The translations under genes were made by a program, and so were the position numbers. DNA of 64,000 bases from positions 992,001 through 1,056,000 of the forward strand of contig NZ_JAMQON010000001.1 in assembly GCF_031624395.1 (NCBI RefSeq), written 5' to 3'. The notes under the pieces are model-generated. The model worked only from the letters and a program-made list of their open reading frames with translations, searched no databases and was not told where the DNA came from. Each line of letters begins with the position of its first letter. The first letter of the stretch is position 1. Source of the stretch: Halomicroarcula saliterrae. Its GTDB lineage: Archaea; Halobacteriota; Halobacteria; Halobacteriales; Haloarculaceae. Shown piece by piece: positions 28,085 through 47,195 of this stretch.

Positions 28085-30157
28085 CTACTCCTCCATCTCG
28101 CTTTTGGCGACCTCCGCGCCGGCGAACTCGAGCACTTCACGTGCGCCCTCTTCGGAGTAGCCCTGCTCGATGAGGGCGTCTATCCACTGGTTGCGCTCGT
28201 CGTCGTCCATCTCCCCCGACGAGACCAGCGCGGAGAAGTTGATGTTGTGTTTCTTGTCCTCCCAGAGCTTGCGTTCCAGCGCGCGGCGCAGGCGGTCGTT
28301 GTCCTGTGGGTTGAACGTATCGCCTTCGCGTGCACGACGGGAGACCCAGTTGCTGACCTCTTGACGGAAGTCGTCCTTGCGGTCCTCGGGGAGATTTAGC
28401 TTCTCCTCGACCGAACGGAGGAACTGCTCGTCGGGCTCCTGCTCCCGGCCGGTCAGCTCGTCCTCGACGGTGTCGTCGTCGATGTAGGCCATCACGTGGT
28501 CCATGTACTTCTCGCCCTGGCGCTGTATCTCGTCCATGTCGTAGGCCAGCGCGTGGCGCACGTCCTCGATGGCCCGCTCCTTGTACTCCTCGCGGACGAG
28601 TTCGAGGAACCGGTAGTACTCGTCGAAGGACTCGGAGTCGATGGAGCCGTGGTTCTCCAGGTTCCCCTCCAGGTGGTTGAACGTCGTCAGCGGCGAGAGG
28701 AAGGTCCGCGAGCGGTGCATCGAGTCCATGATGGCCTCGGCTATCTCGTCGCCGATGAAGCGTGGCGAGACGCCGTCCATCCCCTCGCGGATGTCGGCGG
28801 CCTTCTCGGCCTCCTCGCGGAGCTTCTTGACGTCGATATCGTCGGCCTCGTCGATTTCGCCGTTGTACGCTTTCGCCTTCTGGACGAGCTCGACGGACTC
28901 GGTGTCGGGCTCCTCGATTCGCGTCAGAACGCCGAAGAGGCCGGCCATCTCCAGCGTGTGGGGCTCGACCTGGATGTCCGGGAGGTCGGCGTTCCGGAGC
29001 ATCTTCCGGTATATCTTGGACTCTTCCTCGTACTGGAGGACGTACGGGAAGTCGATGCGTTTCGTCCGGTCGTTGAACGCCTCCATCTTCTCGTCGCCTT
29101 TCTTGTCCCGGTACTCGGGCATGTTCGTCCGGCCGACGATGACCTGGTCGATGTCGATACGGGGGTTGTTCTTCGGTTTGATGGTCTGTTCCTGACTGGC
29201 GTGGAGGAAGTCATAGAGGAACTCCCGCTGGAGTTTCAGTAGCTCCTCGCCGGAGAAGATGCCGCGGTTGGCGTTACAGAACGCGCCCGAGTAGTCGAAG
29301 GCTCGGGGGTCGCTCTCCCCGTAGATAGCGATCTTCGAGTAGTTGACGTCGCCCGTGAGTTCGGTCTCGTCCTGGTTTTTCTTGTCTTTCGGCTCGAAGG
29401 TCTCGATACCCTGGCGCTGGTTCTCGTCGGCGACGAAGCGGACGATTTCGACGTGGTTCTCCAGCACTTCCTGGAGGTTGTCGTCGTAGTACGCCAGCAG
29501 CCGGTCCATGTAGAACTCCGAGGCCGGGTCGAGGTCCTGTTCGTTGCGGATGGTGTAGGGGGCGTCGAGCTCCTCGTTGATGTCCTCGATGACCCGGGCG
29601 CGCTGGTCTTGGGGAAGCAAGACGAGCGGGTCCTGGTTCATCGGCGAGCGGACCACGTCGTCGGCCGGGTCCTGGTCGTGGACCACGTCACAGAGGTTCG
29701 TCCAGCGGAAGGTGTACATCCGTCCCTCGTCGCCGCGCGTGTAGTCCTCGTAATACCGTCGGACCTGCCGGTCGAAGTCGGATTTCCCCGACCCGACGGG
29801 ACCGAGCAGTAGCTTGATGCGTTTCTCGGGACCGAGCCCGCGGGCGCCGGACTTGACCTTGTTGACGAACTCGTGAATCGCCTCGTGGACCTCGCGGCCG
29901 TAGAACGTGTTCTCGCCGTCGTGGATGGGGTCCTCGCTCGCTATCTTGTACTCTACGACCCCGGCGTCTTCGTCGTACTCCGTCCCGTAATAGTCGAACA
30001 TGTCCGCCACGCGCTGGTGGGCGTTGCGGGCGATTCGCGGGTCGGCGTACAGTTTGTCGAGATACCAGTCGAACGTCCGCGTGGTCCGCAGGTCCGCTGG
30101 TATCGTGTCTTGATACTCCTGACTCAGTGCTTCGAGTGTCTCTTTGTTCTGGCTCAT
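28085..30157 (-). CDS. prkA: PrkA-type serine protein kinase (YeaG family)
   Basis: 690 aa, close to the length of bacterial PrkA/YeaG. It has Walker A GPVGSGKS at 119-126, the segment YTFRWTNLCDV, DQVIVGRTNMPEYRDKKGDEKMEAF typical of the AAA part, and a C-terminal kinase-like helical region. It is the first gene of the operon prkA-prkA2-DUF444-spoVR; all intergenic gaps are zero or negative. The product is a cytoplasmic ATPase/kinase implicated in starvation signalling. Its promoter must lie in the 439-bp spacer upstream. Confidence 0.93.
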   Translation of the reverse strand: MSQNKETLEALSQEYQDTIPADLRTTRTFDWYLDKLYADPRIARNAHQRVADMFDYYGTEYDEDAGVVEYKIASEDPIHDGENTFYGREVHEAIHEFVNKVKSGARGLGPEKRIKLLLGPVGSGKSDFDRQVRRYYEDYTRGDEGRMYTFRWTNLCDVVHDQDPADDVVRSPMNQDPLVLLPQDQRARVIEDINEELDAPYTIRNEQDLDPASEFYMDRLLAYYDDNLQEVLENHVEIVRFVADENQRQGIETFEPKDKKNQDETELTGDVNYSKIAIYGESDPRAFDYSGAFCNANRGIFSGEELLKLQREFLYDFLHASQEQTIKPKNNPRIDIDQVIVGRTNMPEYRDKKGDEKMEAFNDRTKRIDFPYVLQYEEESKIYRKMLRNADLPDIQVEPHTLEMAGLFGVLTRIEEPDTESVELVQKAKAYNGEIDEADDIDVKKLREEAEKAADIREGMDGVSPRFIGDEIAEAIMDSMHRSRTFLSPLTTFNHLEGNLENHGSIDSESFDEYYRFLELVREEYKERAIEDVRHALAYDMDEIQRQGEKYMDHVMAYIDDDTVEDELTGREQEPDEQFLRSVEEKLNLPEDRKDDFRQEVSNWVSRRAREGDTFNPQDNDRLRRALERKLWEDKKHNINFSALVSSGEMDDDERNQWIDALIEQGYSEEGAREVLEFAGAEVAKSEMEE

Positions 30158-36655: not shown

Positions 36656-38362
36656 CTACGGGAACGGGTGGTGCGCCCGGTCCAGCCGCGGTTCGAAGCC
36701 CAGCTCTTCCGGGACCCGCTCGGCTCGCTCGCCGAAGTACGCGTCCTCGAAGAACAGCGGCTGGGCGCTGGGACACAGCACTCGAACGGCCTCGAACCCC
36801 AGCTGTTCGAGGTCCGGGGTCGTGAGCCGAGTCGCGTACGGGTCGAGTCCGGCCTCGGTCACCCGCTCGACGAGCGTCGACAGCTCGGCCGCTCCCTCCG
36901 GGACGGTGTCCGGACCGATACTGGAGAGCGGAACCGCGGTCGCCGCGTCGGTGAGCGACGACACGGCGTCGGGCCGGCCGGCGTAGTGGCCGATAGCCCC
37001 GGAGGCGTCGCTCGCACCGTCGCGCCCCATCCCGCGTAGTTCGAGCCAGTTCTGTAGCGCCTCCTCCAGCGCGCCGACAGCGGCGGCCTCCGGGTCCAGC
37101 CCCGCCGACGAGCCGATGGCGAACTCGGGCCACGCCTCGCCGTGCAGGGCCACGGCGACGACCGGCACGTCCACGTCCTGTGTCAGCAACAGCGCCGTCG
37201 CGTCCAGCCCCTCCGAGCGGGCGCGACGGCGGAGCGTGTCGAACCCGTCGGCGTTCTCCACGACGATCTCCAGTGGCTCGTACGTCGAGTACCACGACAG
37301 CATCGCGGCGTCGCGCTCGACGACCTCGTACAGCCCCGACAGGAGCGCGTCGGTCTCCGAACCGCCCAGCCCCAGCCCGGTCGTCACCGGAGGCCGGACC
37401 ATCCGGGTCGGCGGCGGATAGAGGACCGTCTCGGCGGGGACGTCGACCTCCCGTGTAGTCCCCAGATGCTCCGCGGGCAGCCAGTGTAGCTCCGCGTCGA
37501 CGGGCCAGTCGTCGGGCCTGACAAAGGCCGACGGTCGGACGGCGTCGGCGACCTGCTCGGCCGCGCCCCGCGGGAGGCCGTCGGCGCGGTAGACGCCCGC
37601 CGCGTAGCGCTCGTAGCTCTCGCCGAGCGCCTTCATGAAGGCCGTGTCCCAGTCGCTTGCCACGCCGGCGGCCTGCTGGGGCGCCGTCACGTCGCTGAAG
37701 CGGTCGGTGTCGGCCACCGTCGCGAGGTAGTACGGCGCCGGAAAGGACTCGGCTTCGCCGACCTCGCTGACGATACCCACGCGCTCGTCCAGCCCGCCCT
37801 CGGCTCTGTCGAGGGCCTCGCGTTCGTACTCGGGGTCCCCGCCGTGCCGGAGCGTCCACGTCCGGGACCCGCCACAGGAACACCCCGGAACGGGGAGGAA
37901 CTGCCGTTCGGTGTGTGGCAGCTCGACGACCGTTCCGGCGAGGGCGCCGGTCCCCGCGAGCGCCTGCTCGATTCGTCGGCCGGCGACCGCGCCCGCGAAC
38001 CGCTGGGTCCCGCTCGCGGGCGCCTCGGCGGGCGGCTGTCGCTGGTCGACGTTCGCGCGTACTCGCTCGGTGAGACAGCGGTAACAGCCGGTCCCCGGGC
38101 CAAAGCCCGCGACGGAGGCGTCGGCGACCGGGACGCCCCCGATACCCCCGAGTTCCACGGCGACCCACGGCGTCGCCAGTTCGCGCGCCCGGTCGCCGGC
38201 GGTCTCGAACCGCTCCGAGGTGACCTGGTCGACCACGACCGCGAGGTCGGCGGGCGTTACGAGCGGGTCGTCCGCCCGGCGAACGGTGGCGGGGCTATCG
38301 CCCAGCGCCGCGACGAGAGACTCGACCGCCGGGCCGCTCCCGACGACTTCGACAGTAGTCAT
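36656..38362 (-). CDS. Fused E1-like/YcaO azoline cyclodehydratase (TOMM type)
   Basis: 568 aa. The N-terminal 170 residues look like the Ocin-ThiF/E1-like partner domain, with zinc-type Cys pairs CYRC (about 93-96) and CSC (about 160-162). The C-terminal part is a YcaO domain with ATP-binding Glu-rich helices: FMKALGESYERYAAG, LYEVVERDAAMLSWY and GALEEALQNWLEL. It ends in HHPFP, a short form of the Pro-rich tail of cyclodehydratases. Such fusions turn Cys/Ser/Thr of peptides into azolines. No dehydrogenase, protease or clear precursor peptide gene is next to it. It follows the TbsP-like gene after 31 bp and is probably in one operon with it. Confidence 0.85.
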   Translation of the reverse strand: MTTVEVVGSGPAVESLVAALGDSPATVRRADDPLVTPADLAVVVDQVTSERFETAGDRARELATPWVAVELGGIGGVPVADASVAGFGPGTGCYRCLTERVRANVDQRQPPAEAPASGTQRFAGAVAGRRIEQALAGTGALAGTVVELPHTERQFLPVPGCSCGGSRTWTLRHGGDPEYEREALDRAEGGLDERVGIVSEVGEAESFPAPYYLATVADTDRFSDVTAPQQAAGVASDWDTAFMKALGESYERYAAGVYRADGLPRGAAEQVADAVRPSAFVRPDDWPVDAELHWLPAEHLGTTREVDVPAETVLYPPPTRMVRPPVTTGLGLGGSETDALLSGLYEVVERDAAMLSWYSTYEPLEIVVENADGFDTLRRRARSEGLDATALLLTQDVDVPVVAVALHGEAWPEFAIGSSAGLDPEAAAVGALEEALQNWLELRGMGRDGASDASGAIGHYAGRPDAVSSLTDAATAVPLSSIGPDTVPEGAAELSTLVERVTEAGLDPYATRLTTPDLEQLGFEAVRVLCPSAQPLFFEDAYFGERAERVPEELGFEPRLDRAHHPFP

Positions 38363-38393: not shown

Positions 38394-39212
38394 CTAGGCT
38401 GCCAGGATGCTCTGTGCGACCGTCGCCAGCTCGTCGCCGTCGGCGTCTTCGAGGCGCTCGTCGCCCAGCATCAGACGCAGTCGCGGTCGGCCCACGTCGA
38501 TGGGGACTTTCTCGGTGTCGATGAGGCCCATGTCCTCCAGCTTCGTCTTCGTCCGCGAGAAGGTCGCCTTGCTCGCGAGCCCGACGTCCTCGCCCCACTT
38601 GCTGATGTCGTACAGCAGTTCGTTGTTGCGGGCAGCGACGAGCAGGCTGATGGTCACCTCGTCGAGACCGTCGCCGTCGCCGCGGGCGGTCGCCAGCGAG
38701 CCGAGCACGCTGTCGAAGTCCTCGGCGGTCTCCGGGCCGATCTCCGTCTCCAGCGTCGAGCGGACGCGAGAGATGGCGGGGGTCCGGAGCGTGTACTCCG
38801 CCGCGTTCTCCCACGTGCTCTCGTAGTACTCCGCCGCGTCGTCGACGAACTCGTCGTCGTCGGTGCCGAGTCCGCCGACGATGTCGCCGATGGTGACGAG
38901 CGCGTAGACGCCGTCGGCCGTCACGGCGACCGAGTGGTTCGGCACCGTATCGAGCAGTCGCATCGACAGTGTGCCGGCCTCGACGAGGTCGGCCGCCGTA
39001 CTCGCGACGAGGAAGTCGTCCATCACGTCTTTCAGCGTTCGCTCGTCCGCGAGCACGCGGACTTCGGGGGCACCGTCCTGTCGCTCCAGCGTCGACATCA
39101 GCGACGAAATCGTCTCCTGCGAGGGGTTGACCACGTAAATCGGCGTGTCTGTCTCGTCGAACACCGAGGATAGCATCGAACCGATGTCATCTTGCAGTAG
39201 GGTGGTACTCAT
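38394..39212 (-). CDS. tbsP: TbsP-like transcriptional regulator
   Basis: 272 aa from the ATG at 39212; an in-frame start 17 codons upstream is less likely. The N-terminal STTLLQDDIGSMLSSVFDET and the middle sensor-like alpha/beta region precede a winged helix-turn-helix (about 195-250: DISKWGEDVGLASKATFSRT, KLEDMGLIDTEKVP). This is how I remember haloarchaeal TbsP, which in Haloferax helps control gluconeogenic gene expression with TrmB. The identification is from memory. It sits between the CHAT gene and the YcaO gene on the same strand; the 208-bp spacer before it is AT-rich. Confidence 0.7.
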   Translation of the reverse strand: MSTTLLQDDIGSMLSSVFDETDTPIYVVNPSQETISSLMSTLERQDGAPEVRVLADERTLKDVMDDFLVASTAADLVEAGTLSMRLLDTVPNHSVAVTADGVYALVTIGDIVGGLGTDDDEFVDDAAEYYESTWENAAEYTLRTPAISRVRSTLETEIGPETAEDFDSVLGSLATARGDGDGLDEVTISLLVAARNNELLYDISKWGEDVGLASKATFSRTKTKLEDMGLIDTEKVPIDVGRPRLRLMLGDERLEDADGDELATVAQSILAA

Positions 39213-39420
39213 TGACCTATTATGTCTATTGACGCGTGAAACATTTAATTTCATCGGCCGCAACCGATTGAATTCGTCGCTGATTGTGTCATATCGACCA
39301 TCAAATCAGTACAAATATATCTATCAGATACCAATATTATGCAGGTATTCTTGATAATAACAATGGCTGAACACAATAATTTGATACGCAGTAGCTACCG
39401 GCCAGTTGGTACGTAACTTG

Positions 39421-41496
39421 CTAAAAGTTTGGGTCCAATCTCGCAGCGAGGTCCTCGGACCAGTGGAACTCGCCCTCGAAGATGACCGGCAGCGAAGCCG
39501 ACTCCAGCGTCTCGACCAGCGTCTCCGCCGACACCGAGAGTTCGGTTTCGGTCCCGTTGAGCGCCATCTGGCCGTCGAAGGGGAGGTCGTAGCTCTCACC
39601 GGCCCCCTGTGGCGTCATGACCTCGCAGGTGAGGTTGTAGCCGCGGTCGCCGTTGCTGACCTGGACGACAACGGGGTCGGTCGGGCCCGGTAACAGCGCG
39701 TAGGTCCCGTCGCCGACCACCGCGTAGTCCTTGCTCATCATGATGCGACGCCGCGCCAGCTGGAGCGCGCGCTGGATGCTGAACCCGTTCGAGAGCAGCC
39801 GGGCGAAGGCCGTCCCGACCATCGCGGCGTGGCTGTCGAGCACGTCCGCGAAGGTCACGGCCCCCGCGACCGAGCCCTGTTCGATGAGCGCCAACCCCTG
39901 TTCGTAGGAGCCACAGGCGTTCAGGAAGAACGTCCGGGTGCGGGACTCCGAGAGCGACTCCATCGAGAGGTTCCCGTCGGGACAGCGGAGGCCGTCGTCC
40001 TCGCAGTGACCGATGAAGTGGACGAAGTCGTTCTCCGACTCGAACACGTCCGCGAGGGCACCAGTGGTCAACTGGTCGGAGACGGTGACGTCCATCGGGA
40101 GGTCGGCCGCCCGGTATATCTCGGAGACGGCGTGGCGTTCGTCCGACATCTCCATATCGTTCAACACCACGGAGAGCTGGAGGTGGTCGGTCTCCTTTTT
40201 CCGGTAGCGGTACCGGTTCTCGTAGGCCGACGGCGTCGTCTTGAACGCGTCGATAGGCGTGCCCGGCGCCAGCCAGCCGGTGACCCGGCCGACACCGCCC
40301 TGTGGTTCCACCATCGCCGTCGGCTCGGCGGCCCCGCGCGTATAGGTGTCAGAGAGGGTCTTTTCGAGGAGGTCACGCCGGTCCAGCTCCGACCCGTCGG
40401 AGAGACAGATGAGACTCAGTTTGTCGAGCAGGAAGGGGAGACAGCGAGCGCGAGCGAGCGACGGGTCCGTGTGCGTCGAGAGGTGCCACTCCGGGACTGC
40501 CTCGTCGACGGCCGCTGTCGGCGCCTGCATGTACCGTTCGAGGCGGTCGGCCGGCGATAGCGAGCGGACGGTCTCGGGGTCCATCGAACACCGGTCCAGG
40601 AGTTCGGGGTCCGATTCGGGGTTCATCCGCCTGACCAGACAGTCCAGATAGAACTGTCGCTGGAGCATCTCGGCCACCTCGTTCTGGAAATCGGGGAACT
40701 GGCCGAACTCGTGGTGGACGTCTGTCCCCTCGGCCGTGAGCACCACCCGCTTGCGGTCCCCGACTGTCACGTCCGCGCCGAGATAGTACGCGAGCGGCGC
40801 GACGACGAACAGCGACTCCACGCAGGGTGGCGACCTGAGCTCGATTCCCGTCTCGGGCTTCGTGTTGGCGAGCTCAGTCGGAATCGACGTCGACTCGCCG
40901 GTCGTCAACAGGGGCGGGTGACCCCGCTGTCCGGGATGTGAGCGCGAGGGTGTGAGCGTGTGGTGTGCCGCGCTCAGATGCGAGAGCCCGGTCGCGAGTC
41001 CCGCCGGGCTCTCCCGGACCTGAACGTGGGCCGGCCCGATAGACGTGGACTCGCCGACGCCGACGACGACCCGCTGTTGGTCCCACATCGACAGCACGGT
41101 GTCGCTATCGGTCGGCCGCAGCGAGGCGGGCCCGTCGAACCGAATGTGGACGCGCCCCTGTTCCGCGGCGAGGGGACTGCGGGCACCTGCCCCCTCTGTC
41201 GTCTCGACGGTCGTCGAGAGGAGATAGGACCCTTCGGGCAGTTCGGACGCGGTAGTCAGTGTGTACTGGGCGTCACAGTCCAGCGCCGCGACCGTGGGCG
41301 CGGCCCCCGGTACGCGCAGCCGCGCGGTCCGGCCGCTGAAACAGTTGGTCGTGGCCCGTGGCACGGACTCCGGCGAACACTCGCGGCGCTCGTCGAGTTG
41401 CGCGAGCACTGTCGACAGCCCCGAGCGACCCTGCCGTGCAGTTCCGGTCGCGGGTCCCCGGTCCGCGGCCGCGTCTGCCACCCCCCAAGTGACCAT
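39421..41496 (-). CDS. CHAT-domain caspase-like protease
   Basis: 691 aa. The C-terminal third is a CHAT/peptidase C80-C14-like domain with the catalytic pair His497 in DFVHFIGHCEDDG and Cys528 in FFLNACGSYEQG, then the helix AARL-type segment VGTAFARLLSNGFSIQRALQ. The N-terminal 450 residues have no family I can name, with a beta-rich start and many Thr/Pro. No signal peptide or membrane helix, so cytoplasmic. CHAT proteases act in programmed death and defence, but need an activator and a substrate, neither of which is obvious here. The TATA box lies about 26 nt before the ATG, so the mRNA should be leaderless. Confidence 0.85.
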   Translation of the reverse strand: MVTWGVADAAADRGPATGTARQGRSGLSTVLAQLDERRECSPESVPRATTNCFSGRTARLRVPGAAPTVAALDCDAQYTLTTASELPEGSYLLSTTVETTEGAGARSPLAAEQGRVHIRFDGPASLRPTDSDTVLSMWDQQRVVVGVGESTSIGPAHVQVRESPAGLATGLSHLSAAHHTLTPSRSHPGQRGHPPLLTTGESTSIPTELANTKPETGIELRSPPCVESLFVVAPLAYYLGADVTVGDRKRVVLTAEGTDVHHEFGQFPDFQNEVAEMLQRQFYLDCLVRRMNPESDPELLDRCSMDPETVRSLSPADRLERYMQAPTAAVDEAVPEWHLSTHTDPSLARARCLPFLLDKLSLICLSDGSELDRRDLLEKTLSDTYTRGAAEPTAMVEPQGGVGRVTGWLAPGTPIDAFKTTPSAYENRYRYRKKETDHLQLSVVLNDMEMSDERHAVSEIYRAADLPMDVTVSDQLTTGALADVFESENDFVHFIGHCEDDGLRCPDGNLSMESLSESRTRTFFLNACGSYEQGLALIEQGSVAGAVTFADVLDSHAAMVGTAFARLLSNGFSIQRALQLARRRIMMSKDYAVVGDGTYALLPGPTDPVVVQVSNGDRGYNLTCEVMTPQGAGESYDLPFDGQMALNGTETELSVSAETLVETLESASLPVIFEGEFHWSEDLAARLDPNF

Positions 41497-41515
41497 GTGG
41501 TAACAACTGTGGGCT

Positions 41516-41552
41516 TATGCATTATATACGTACTGATAACATAGTATGCATT
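41516..41552. promoter_or_regulatory. Promoter and repeated ATGCAT site before the CHAT gene
   Basis: TATGCATT occurs at 41516-41523 and again at 41545-41552, both containing the palindrome ATGCAT. Between them is the minus-strand TATA box TATATAAT (41529-41522), overlapping the first copy. Two copies around a TATA box suggest an operator for a dimeric repressor of the CHAT gene. Confidence 0.5.
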
Positions 41553-41657
41553 TCTTTCCGACAGGTAACCTCCTCGTAAGTGCCCCGTATCTGCCAGTTG
41601 CTCACACGCCTGCGGGCAAAGGGTAGATTATTGACGGGCGCGTGCTGACCACACCAT

Positions 41658-42905
41658 ATGAGCTACGACACCGTCCGCGAGACGGACCCTGCTGTTGCAG
41701 ACGCGCTCGAAGGTGAGCGGGCTCGCCAGAACGACACGCTGGCGATGATCGCCTCGGAGAACCACGTCTCCGAGGCCGTCATGGAGGCCCAGAGCTCCGA
41801 ACTCACGAACAAGTACGCCGAGGGCTACCCCGGCGAGCGCTACTACGGCGGCTGTGAGTACGCCGACGACGTAGAGCAACTGGCCATCGACCGCGCCAAA
41901 GAGCTGTGGGGCGCCGACCACATCAACGTCCAGCCGCATTCGGGCTCGCAGGCGAACATGGGGGTCTACCTCGGTGTGCTCGAACCCGGTGACAAGATTC
42001 TCTCGCTGGACCTGACCCACGGCGGTCATCTCTCTCACGGTCACCCGGCGAACTTCGCCGGGCAGGTGTACGAGGTCGAGCAGTACGAGGTCGACGAGGA
42101 GACGGGCTACGTCGACTACGAGGGCCTGCACGAACACGCCGAGGAGTACGAGCCGGACATCATCGTCTCGGGCTACTCGGCGTACCCCCGGGAAGTCGAC
42201 TTCGCGCGCATTCAGGAGGCGGCCGACGCCGTCGACGCCTACCACCTCGCCGACATCGCTCACATCACCGGACTCGTCGCCGCCGGCGTCCACGAGTCGC
42301 CGGTCGGCGTCGCCGACTTCGTCACCGGTTCGACGCACAAGACGATCCGCGCCGGCCGCGGTGGCATCATCATGTGCGACGACGAGTACGCCGACGACAT
42401 CGACGCCGCCGTCTTCCCCGGCTCGCAGGGCGGTCCGCTGATGCACAACGTCGCCGGCAAGGCCGTCGGCTTCAAGGAGGCCCTCGAACCCGAGTTCGAG
42501 GCGTACGCCCAGCAGACCGTCGACAACGCCGTCGCGCTCGGCGACCGGCTCAAGGAGCACGGCCTCGACCTGGTCTCCGACGGCACCGACAACCACCTCG
42601 TGCTCGTCGACCTCCGGCCGTCCCATCCCGACACGACCGGCAAGGACGTGGAGGCCGCACTGGAGGACGCGGGCATCGTGCTGAACGCCAACACCGTCCC
42701 CGGCGAGACCCGCTCGGCGTTCAACCCCTCGGGCATCCGCGCGGGCACGCCCGGCCTGACGACGCGTGGCTTCGACGAGGACGACTGCCGCGAGGTCGCG
42801 GACCTCATCTACGACGTCGTCGAGGCGCCCCACGACGACGACGTCGTCGCCGAAGTCGGCGAGCGCGTCGACGAACTCACCGACGAGTACCCGCTGTACG
42901 AGTAG
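41658..42905 (+). CDS. glyA: Serine hydroxymethyltransferase
   Basis: 415 aa, full length. MIASENHVSEAVMEAQ, EGYPGERYYGGCEYADDVEQLA and TGSTHKTIRAGRGG with PLP-binding Lys228 are all present. It converts serine and tetrahydrofolate (or an archaeal pterin) to glycine and 5,10-methylene derivative. folD, 5 kb downstream on the same strand, uses that product, consistent with a folate-type one-carbon pathway in haloarchaea. Confidence 0.97.
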   Translation: MSYDTVRETDPAVADALEGERARQNDTLAMIASENHVSEAVMEAQSSELTNKYAEGYPGERYYGGCEYADDVEQLAIDRAKELWGADHINVQPHSGSQANMGVYLGVLEPGDKILSLDLTHGGHLSHGHPANFAGQVYEVEQYEVDEETGYVDYEGLHEHAEEYEPDIIVSGYSAYPREVDFARIQEAADAVDAYHLADIAHITGLVAAGVHESPVGVADFVTGSTHKTIRAGRGGIIMCDDEYADDIDAAVFPGSQGGPLMHNVAGKAVGFKEALEPEFEAYAQQTVDNAVALGDRLKEHGLDLVSDGTDNHLVLVDLRPSHPDTTGKDVEAALEDAGIVLNANTVPGETRSAFNPSGIRAGTPGLTTRGFDEDDCREVADLIYDVVEAPHDDDVVAEVGERVDELTDEYPLYE

Positions 42906-44301: not shown

Positions 44302-45744
44302 TCACTCGCCGAGATGCCGCGTCGTGAACTCCGCGATGGGGTCCTCGGTCTCGCGCATCCACTCGGCCAGCCGGTCGCGCAACCGGGCCCGCACGTCGCG
44401 GTAGTCCGGGTGGTCGACGAGGTTCTGCAGCTCGTGGGGGTCCGCGTCGAGGTCGTACAGCTCGTCGACGTCGGGCGCGTTGAAGACGTACTTGTACCGC
44501 TCGGTCCGGATCATCCGCTGAGAGTGAAACCCCATCTCGTCGCCGTGGTACTCGGCGAAGACGGCCTCGCGGGCGTCGGTCTCCTCGCCGCGCAGCGTCG
44601 GCCAGAGACTGCGGGCGTCGATGTCCTCGGGTACCGGCGCGTCGGCGAGTTCGAGGAACGTCGGCATCAGGTCCATGAGCGAGACGAGGTCGTCACAGAG
44701 CCGACCCCGACCGGCGACACCGGGACCGCGCACGACAAGCGGGATGCGGTAGGTGTCGTCGTACATGAACGGGCCCTTGTTCCACTGCCGATGGCCGCCG
44801 GTGAAATCGCCGTGGTCGGAGGCGTGGACGACCACCGTGTCGTCGGCCACGCCGAACTCTTCGAGCGCGTCGAGGATGCGACCGATCTGGTCGTCGATGT
44901 GGTGCATGAACCCCATGTACAACGCGCGGAGCGTCGCCCAGTCCTCCCACGTCAGGTCCTCGACGCCGCGGTAGGACCGGTAGTTCTCCTGCACCTGTGG
45001 CTTCCCGTCGAAAGTCTCCGCGTAGGAGGGCCAGGCCCCCAGCTCCTCGGGGTCGTACATCGAGGCGTAGGGCTCCGGGACCAGATACGGGTGGTGTGGC
45101 CCCTGGAAATCGACCCGGTGGAAAAAGGGGCCGTCGGCGTCGGCCAGTCGCTCCAGCCGCTGAATCGTCAGCTCGGCGTTGTAGTAGCTCCGGGTGGCCG
45201 CCGGGGGAATCGGCAGCGTGGCGCCCAGCAGGTCGCGCGAGTCGGGGAACTCGGCGTAGATCGCGTCCTCCGGTTCGACCGCGTCCGGGTCGACACCGAG
45301 GTCGCGCTGGTGGGCCGCCAGTCCCGATTCGAGGTGGGCGTCGTGGTGCTGGTCGCTCCCGCCGACGTAGTCGAACCCGAAGTCCTCCGGCGTCTTGTGA
45401 CGGCCGACGTGCCACTTGCCGACGTAGGCGTTCTCGTAGCCGGCCTCCCGGAGCGCCGTGCCGAAGGTCGGTACGTCTTCGGGCAGGTCCGCCCGGACCG
45501 CGTCCCGTTCGTGGACGTTGTTGAGCACGCCGTGTCTGTGTGGGTAGCGTCCGGACAGCAGCGACGCCCGGGCGCTGCTACAGATGCTGATAGGCGTGTA
45601 CGCGTTCGTGAACCGGACGCCGTCGGCGGCGAGTCCGTCGATAGCGTCGGTCTCGGCGGGGATGCCGTCCGGTGCGAGCAGGTCGTGGCGCTCCTGGTCG
45701 GTCAACAGGAGGAGCACGTTCGGCCGGTCCGTGTTTCGGGCCAT
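44302..45744 (-). CDS. Sulfatase, formylglycine-type
   Basis: 480 aa from the ATG at 45744. RPNVLLLLTDQERHD is the first metal-binding strand. The active-site motif ICSSARASLLSG carries Cys55 (C-x-x-A-R), expected to become formylglycine. HASDHGDFTGGH supplies further metal ligands and GPFMYDDTYRIPLVVRGPG follows. It cleaves sulfate esters or related substrates. Co-translated with the next gene upstream (TGATG, one-base overlap). Cytoplasmic as written: no signal peptide. Confidence 0.9.
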   Translation of the reverse strand: MARNTDRPNVLLLLTDQERHDLLAPDGIPAETDAIDGLAADGVRFTNAYTPISICSSARASLLSGRYPHRHGVLNNVHERDAVRADLPEDVPTFGTALREAGYENAYVGKWHVGRHKTPEDFGFDYVGGSDQHHDAHLESGLAAHQRDLGVDPDAVEPEDAIYAEFPDSRDLLGATLPIPPAATRSYYNAELTIQRLERLADADGPFFHRVDFQGPHHPYLVPEPYASMYDPEELGAWPSYAETFDGKPQVQENYRSYRGVEDLTWEDWATLRALYMGFMHHIDDQIGRILDALEEFGVADDTVVVHASDHGDFTGGHRQWNKGPFMYDDTYRIPLVVRGPGVAGRGRLCDDLVSLMDLMPTFLELADAPVPEDIDARSLWPTLRGEETDAREAVFAEYHGDEMGFHSQRMIRTERYKYVFNAPDVDELYDLDADPHELQNLVDHPDYRDVRARLRDRLAEWMRETEDPIAEFTTRHLGE

Positions 45745-47195
45745 CAGAGGTACCCGAGGTCGGCGAGCCTGTCTTCGGTGGCGTCGGAGACAGTGACACT
45801 GCCGGTGGCGTCGGTCTGGTCGAAGCTCCCCAGCCATCTGTCGAGGTCGGCGGCCAGCCCGGCGGTCGTGCGAGGGCTGGACGTCGAGATGTCGTGTTTC
45901 TCACCGGGGTCCGCCCGGAGGTCGTACAGCCACTGGCTGCCGTCGGAGCCGCGGACGAACTTGTAATCGGTCGTCCGGACGGCCCGCAGCGAGCGCTGGT
46001 AGTCGTATATCTCCTGGGGAACGTGGTCGAACTTCGATTCGAGGACCTCGATAGGCGGCCGCGGCTGCATGTACTCGGCGATGACGCGCGAACGCGGCTG
46101 GTCGCCCCTGACTGGATGAAACGAGAGAGCCTGAGACGCCTCGCGGACCGCCGGTGCGTCGATGCCGGCCACGTCCAGCAGCGTCGGCGCCAGGTCCGCC
46201 GTCTGGACCAGCCGCTCGCTCCGCGTGTCCGTCGCCGAGAACGCACCGCCGTTGATGACGAGCGGGACGTGCAAGACCGTGTCGTAGAGGCTGTACTGGT
46301 GACCCAGAAAGCCGTGTTCCCCGATGTTCTCCCCGTGGTCGCTGACCGCCACGAACACGGTGTCGTCCCACTCCCCCGCGCGTTCGAGGGCGTCGCGGAG
46401 CCGACCGAGCTGTTCGTCGAGGTACCGTATCTCCGCCGCGTAGAGCGCCTGCACGACGCTCCACTCCTCGTCGGTGTAGTCGAACTCGCCGACGTCGAAC
46501 TCCCGGGGGTCCTGTCTGAGCGTCATCGCCCGGTCGTAGCTCCACCCCTCGGGCAGGAACTCGCGGGCGTAGGCCGGCGGCGGCCGGTACTCCAGGTGCG
46601 GCTCGATACAGTTGGCAAAGAGAAAGAAGGGCACGTCGCTGTCGCGGCCCCGCAACCAGTCCTCGACCCACTCGACCGTCGCCGCGGCCCCGTCGTCGGT
46701 CGGGCCAGTCAGAAGCCTGCGCAGGCGCTCGAACGCCGTCCCGCCCAGTCCGCTCTCGCGAACGGCGTTGGTGAGCCGGTCACCGAGCGAGCCGGCACCG
46801 CTCCAGGCGTCCGTCCGCTCGCCGTCCTCACGGAAGGTGTCGAACCCGCCGGTGAGGCCGAACTCCTCGGCGATCCAGACGTTGTTCGAGATACCGGCCG
46901 TCTCGTAGCCCGCGTCGGCGAACGCGTCCACGATGGTCGGGAGCTCCCCGTCGAACTTCGTGTGTTCGGCGTGGGCCCCGTGTTTCGACGGATAAGTGCC
47001 GGTAAACAGCGAGACGTGGGCGGGGAGCGTCCACGGCGCCGTGGTGAACGCGTCGGTGTACTCGGTGCCTGATTCGGCCAGCGCCGCGAGATTCGGGGTC
47101 AGCTCCGGGTCGGCCGGGACCGTCTCGACCCCGCGCATCGTGTCCATCACGAACAGAACGATATTGGGGTCGTCCCGATCGGTCTCCCCGGTCAT
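45744..47195 (-). CDS. Sulfatase-superfamily hydrolase with Thr nucleophile
   Basis: 483 aa. PNIVLFVMDTMRG starts the fold. The active-site segment is APWTLPAHVSLFTG, where Thr56 stands where sulfatases have Cys or Ser (T-x-P-x-H versus C-x-P-x-R). Other metal-site motifs (VAVSDHGENIGEHGFLGH) are intact. A Thr nucleophile is used by phosphoglycerol or phosphoethanolamine transferases and other alkaline-phosphatase relatives, so it may act on phosphate, not sulfate, esters. It is upstream of and overlaps the formylglycine-type sulfatase gene. Confidence 0.87.
   Translation of the reverse strand: MTGETDRDDPNIVLFVMDTMRGVETVPADPELTPNLAALAESGTEYTDAFTTAPWTLPAHVSLFTGTYPSKHGAHAEHTKFDGELPTIVDAFADAGYETAGISNNVWIAEEFGLTGGFDTFREDGERTDAWSGAGSLGDRLTNAVRESGLGGTAFERLRRLLTGPTDDGAAATVEWVEDWLRGRDSDVPFFLFANCIEPHLEYRPPPAYAREFLPEGWSYDRAMTLRQDPREFDVGEFDYTDEEWSVVQALYAAEIRYLDEQLGRLRDALERAGEWDDTVFVAVSDHGENIGEHGFLGHQYSLYDTVLHVPLVINGGAFSATDTRSERLVQTADLAPTLLDVAGIDAPAVREASQALSFHPVRGDQPRSRVIAEYMQPRPPIEVLESKFDHVPQEIYDYQRSLRAVRTTDYKFVRGSDGSQWLYDLRADPGEKHDISTSSPRTTAGLAADLDRWLGSFDQTDATGSVTVSDATEDRLADLGYL

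Follow-up and report, generated by a model that had tools for sequence, protein, structure and literature searches.

The window, by which we mean the whole stretch of 64,000 nucleotides that was analysed, carries in its Haloarcula-type host sequence three ORFs that all lie on the minus strand, as the sequence-only reading had described: CHAT (39421..41496; 691 aa, ATG start), tbsP (38394..39212; taken from the ATG at 39212, the mechanical ORF being longer with a TTG start) and ycaO, coding for a fused E1-like/YcaO protein (36656..38362; 568 aa, ATG start). The gap of 31 bp between tbsP and ycaO and the AT-rich spacer of 208 bp between CHAT and tbsP reported in that reading were both confirmed in length, the spacer having 38% GC. 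On the other side of CHAT lies glyA, the serine hydroxymethyltransferase (SHMT) gene (41658..42905, plus strand), which is its conserved divergent neighbour. Among named genomes the closest is that of Haloarcula rara.

The CHAT label had been given without database searches and is backed by a His/Cys dyad and a predicted fold, despite a Pfam CHAT score below the cut-off (18.8 versus 24 bits, E 0.0012); this Pfam model is matched by 16 of 68 homologues at E ≤ 0.01. The candidate catalytic residues are H493/H497 and C528, and the H497/C528 dyad is kept in 66 of the 68 aligned homologues, the two exceptions both being divergent paralogues from genus g17. The protein is laid out as a beta-rich N-terminal region followed by an alpha/beta region and the CHAT domain (about 439–600). 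Foldseek searches with a structure model of pLDDT 86.4 (which replaced a first model built from 13 sequences, pLDDT 66) gave SAVED-CHAT at E 1e-7 and then separase, gingipain R and TPR-CHAT, with low TM-scores (0.20–0.28 by query), so that the similarity rests on the domain; a sequence search of solved structures gave no credible CHAT match. We infer that the window protein is a caspase-fold, cysteine-protease-like protein and a putative protease. It has the His/Cys dyad and caspase-like core in common with the clan CD cysteine proteases (SAVED-CHAT, the TPR-CHAT protein Csx29, separase and gingipain), and its alignments with separase, covering about 490–500 columns, would fit a degenerate domain ahead of the active one. 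It differs from these proteins in having no Pfam-recognised SAVED or TPR domain, in that no CRISPR partner was seen, and in being paired with a TbsP-family regulator.

TbsP reaches 410.5 bits with the NCBIfam TbsP equivalog model, whose cut-off is 300, and carries both TbsP Pfam domains, TbsP_N and HTH_TbsP_C. It belongs to the same equivalog family as TbsP of Haloferax volcanii, which is reportedly a suppressor of trmB lethality and is said, by the title of Hackley 2024, to be a regulator of gapII. The fused YcaO protein matches PF02624, falls just under the cut-off of the SagD-family model (215.8 versus 219.25) and far from that of the methan_mark_1 model for McrA thioamidation (83.5 versus 365); its YcaO part is SagD-like and its N-terminal part has a TruD-like Cys motif. 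CHAT homologues are present in 223 of the 242 genomes sampled from the class, TbsP in 240 and YcaO in 241, and TbsP and YcaO are therefore core haloarchaeal genes.

Control regions at the locus

Footprinting identified a conserved tbsP promoter element, AATTCAA-N10-GGCCGATGAAATTAAATG (39242..39274, minus strand), of which there is one copy in a scan of the genome. In the families examined the region upstream of tbsP has a block ending in AAAATTAAGTA or a near variant, often after GGCC, about 40 bases before the start, and the CHAT-proximal part of the spacer is not conserved. Footprinting also picked out the divergent CHAT/glyA control region (41497..41657), which has a TATA-like GTATATAA on its CHAT side (minus strand) and a conserved block on its glyA side (plus strand) that reads CAATAATCTACC on the CHAT strand. 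As each has its own conserved promoter-like region, CHAT and tbsP appear to be separate units: tbsP and ycaO are likely to form one operon behind the tbsP promoter, and the comparison argues for CHAT as a unit with its own promoter-like region, divergent from glyA.

A candidate shared operator, ATCAGTACNWATATA, was spotted by eye; its only two exact copies in the genome both flank CHAT, one at 39305..39319 (plus strand) and one at the CHAT promoter (41523..41537, minus strand). It was dropped when only 5.3% of 76 loci reached p ≤ 0.05, which is the chance level, and over these 76 loci the control regions of CHAT and tbsP yielded no common DNA element.

Conservation of the gene order

The sequence-only reading would have failed had the three genes never been neighbours in related genomes; the neighbourhood comparison that it proposed was run and found CHAT, tbsP and ycaO to be conserved neighbours. 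Among the 80 closest CHAT homologues tbsP is next on the same strand in 76 and glyA is divergent in 75, while at 43 of the 80 loci ycaO is also within 1.5 kb of tbsP and all three genes stand in order. As the order CHAT–tbsP–ycaO is kept in relatives, it is more than chance. The tbsP–ycaO gap is 31–119 bp in most of the 43 loci (Haloarcula, Halorientalis, Haladaptatus, Halorussus) but exceeds this range in some others; the CHAT–tbsP spacer is about 130–840 bp in nearly all relatives, a single spacer of 39 bp probably reflecting an overextended CHAT frame. The arrangement also comes apart. In Natrialbaceae CHAT and tbsP are together and ycaO is elsewhere; glyA–tbsP–ycaO or tbsP–ycaO without CHAT at the tbsP locus is found in four cases (L137, L139, L141, L144), and a Haloferax-like genome (G078) has ycaO–tbsP–glyA without CHAT. 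CHAT and tbsP are not neighbours in three genomes of family f7; in the one whose loci were read (G033), glyA–CHAT stands apart from tbsP–ycaO (L142, L143). Mean identity to the window over seven other Haloarcula loci is 53% for CHAT, 63% for YcaO, 78% for TbsP and 92% for GlyA; CHAT is thus the fastest evolving of the four neighbours, which fits several explanations.

The conservation of a ycaO neighbourhood linked to SHMT across haloarchaea was described in a 2023 paper (PMC9953058) on the haloarchaeal fused YcaO (the 'haloazolisin' gene), which like the window ycaO is a core fused YcaO near SHMT. CHAT and TbsP are not mentioned there and the gene before ycaO is called unknown; synteny with the loci compared here suggests that it is tbsP. 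No description of a CHAT–TbsP link was found in the literature that could be searched, and this link looks like the new part.

CHAT–TbsP pairs away from glyA

CHAT–TbsP pairs within 2 kb numbered 42 in 41 genomes that carry both genes, against 1.27 expected from gene counts; these genomes were picked for multiple copies and the expectation was computed from the same copy counts. By our assignment 23 of the pairs belong to the glyA locus, and the other 19 are spread over 17 CHAT loci elsewhere, the absence of glyA having been read directly in the fetched loci but not in G209. The 17 loci come from G124 and G174 (five each), genus g34 (three) and G121, G229, G180 and G023 (one each, the two genes being 1.7 kb apart in G023). 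Their flanking genes differ from locus to locus, and CHAT–TbsP pairs occur in tandem, divergent and convergent arrangements; an extra divergent pair lies on a plasmid of Halobaculum salinum. The paired paralogous regulators that were scanned have both TbsP_N and HTH_TbsP_C in all cases except L115 (HTH only). Most non-glyA CHAT paralogues are without a TbsP partner.

In the CHAT tree two deep clades are seen, one of them made up of the glyA-locus proteins together with the g57 expansion (G124, G174), and both clades have paired members. In the TbsP tree (FastTree, rooted at the midpoint so that the root is not fixed) most g57 regulators cluster in parallel with their CHATs, and a deep group includes L123, L131, L132 and L133. 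The many g57 pairs are largely a duplication of one pair and do not count as independent. In L135 and L136, from one genus, a core-like TbsP stands beside a type-2 CHAT. Taken together the trees suggest at least three separate CHAT–TbsP associations, newly formed or retained, some of which could, with the root not fixed, instead reflect losses from an ancestral pair.

Several further arrangements were seen around CHAT relatives. L119 and L120 have TbsP-family genes on both sides of CHAT, and in L120 the promoters of divergent CHAT and TbsP genes share one short region. Three tandem CHAT genes occupy 2318–9309 of L150 (G023), with no TbsP in the fetched stretch. CHAT relatives in L124, L125 and L126 (genus g17) have a TbsP-like gene 2.5 kb off; L124 and L125 no longer have the dyad (L126 was outside that alignment). 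In L124 APH-like and aldo/keto reductase genes lie between the two, and by clustering L125 and L126 have members of both these families in the corresponding places. CHAT in L116 and L129 (one genus) is flanked by the same two gene families in both genomes, which in L116 match lipoyl synthase and dehydrogenase E1.

A proposed protease–regulator pair and the alternatives

We propose that the locus comprises two units, a tbsP–ycaO operon and a separate CHAT, and that CHAT and a TbsP-family regulator form a recurrent functional pair, a reading that we hold to be about evenly poised. The functional link is favoured because the adjacency recurs in several orientations. The two proteins would most likely take part in the same response, be it a stress or a metabolic one. 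Either the TbsP-family factor would set the expression of CHAT, or CHAT might cleave that factor or its partner and so switch transcription, as with Csx29. This CHAT protease of type III-E CRISPR acts through Csx30 on the sigma factor CASP-sigma (PMC10028731), a precedent for tying a CHAT protease to the control of transcription; it differs in that the target is a sigma factor and TbsP is an archaeal HTH regulator, in that a Csx30-like inhibitor or RNA guide was not seen with CHAT–TbsP and in that cleavage is here only postulated. When genomes that have CHAT at the locus were set against those that lack it there, TbsP showed no obvious cleavage-site signature. Against the pairing speak this and the lack of a shared promoter element over 76 loci, the mostly unpaired non-glyA CHAT paralogues, the largely common origin of the g57 pairs, the f7 genomes, the four tbsP loci without CHAT and the low Foldseek TM-scores. 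That CHAT directly processes the TbsP-family regulator, or is itself the regulator's dedicated target, making the pair a caspase-like transcriptional switch of archaea and a candidate source of the unexplained caspase-like activity of haloarchaea, is a speculative extension that we consider unlikely. Measurements in Haloferax have revealed such activity even though archaea were believed to possess no homologues of caspase genes (PMC3615174). A widespread dyad-bearing haloarchaeal CHAT family together with a known transcription factor would supply candidate genes and a testable partner for it; one CHAT homologue was seen in a Haloferax-like genome (L140).

Against a functional pair stands the possibility, which we place on the unlikely side, that glyA, CHAT, tbsP and ycaO are merely inherited neighbours without functional linkage and the paralogous pairs are segmental duplications. 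This would agree with the equal conservation of glyA beside CHAT (75 of 80), with the mirroring of one duplicated pair in much of the g57 expansion and with the separate promoters of CHAT and tbsP; it accounts poorly for pairs that recur without glyA or ycaO, also in divergent and convergent arrangements, or for a type-2 CHAT beside a core-like TbsP. Quite improbable, in our view, is a role for CHAT in defence or cell death, as an effector repressed by TbsP, with its fast evolution coming from conflict with viruses or plasmids. CHAT at 53% identity does contrast with TbsP and GlyA (78% and 92%), SAVED-CHAT is the closest solved fold and CHAT paralogues are present on plasmids, but fast evolution has other causes, in most families CHAT keeps one site next to glyA, which a mobile defence island would not be expected to do, and PADLOC gave no match for CHAT or YcaO and only a weak one for TbsP (Csa3, E 0.015). 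CHAT had no match in a phage collection either, and a phage origin was ruled against on this ground.

The sequence-only reading had raised a module in which the protease and the YcaO enzyme are co-regulated. Its neighbours proved to be conserved, but a single CHAT–YcaO module found no support, given the separate promoter-like regions, tbsP–ycaO without CHAT, ycaO elsewhere in Natrialbaceae and the lack of an element common over the 76 loci. Its fuller form, in which TbsP would control a three-gene module with YcaO as the modifying and CHAT as the cleaving enzyme of a peptide, could draw on the 43 of 80 loci with all three genes in order and on the TruD-like fused N-terminal region of YcaO. It is nevertheless highly improbable, as all but one of the 242 genomes have YcaO and ycaO is parted from CHAT–tbsP in many genomes, and as no credible precursor peptide was found for the haloarchaeal fused YcaO and deletion of ycaO in Haloferax mediterranei did not abolish antimicrobial activity (PMC9953058). 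The comparative data thus support a CHAT–TbsP partnership and leave the putative CHAT–YcaO link weak; ycaO, often annotated as a peptide-antibiotic enzyme gene, is set apart from the protease by these comparisons.

Elsewhere in the window there is a gene for a PrkA-type serine protein kinase (28085–30157, minus strand) with AAA_PrkA and PrkA C-terminal domains, and two adjoining sulfatase-family genes (44302–45837 and 45744–47195, minus strand) have frames that overlap by about 90 bases.
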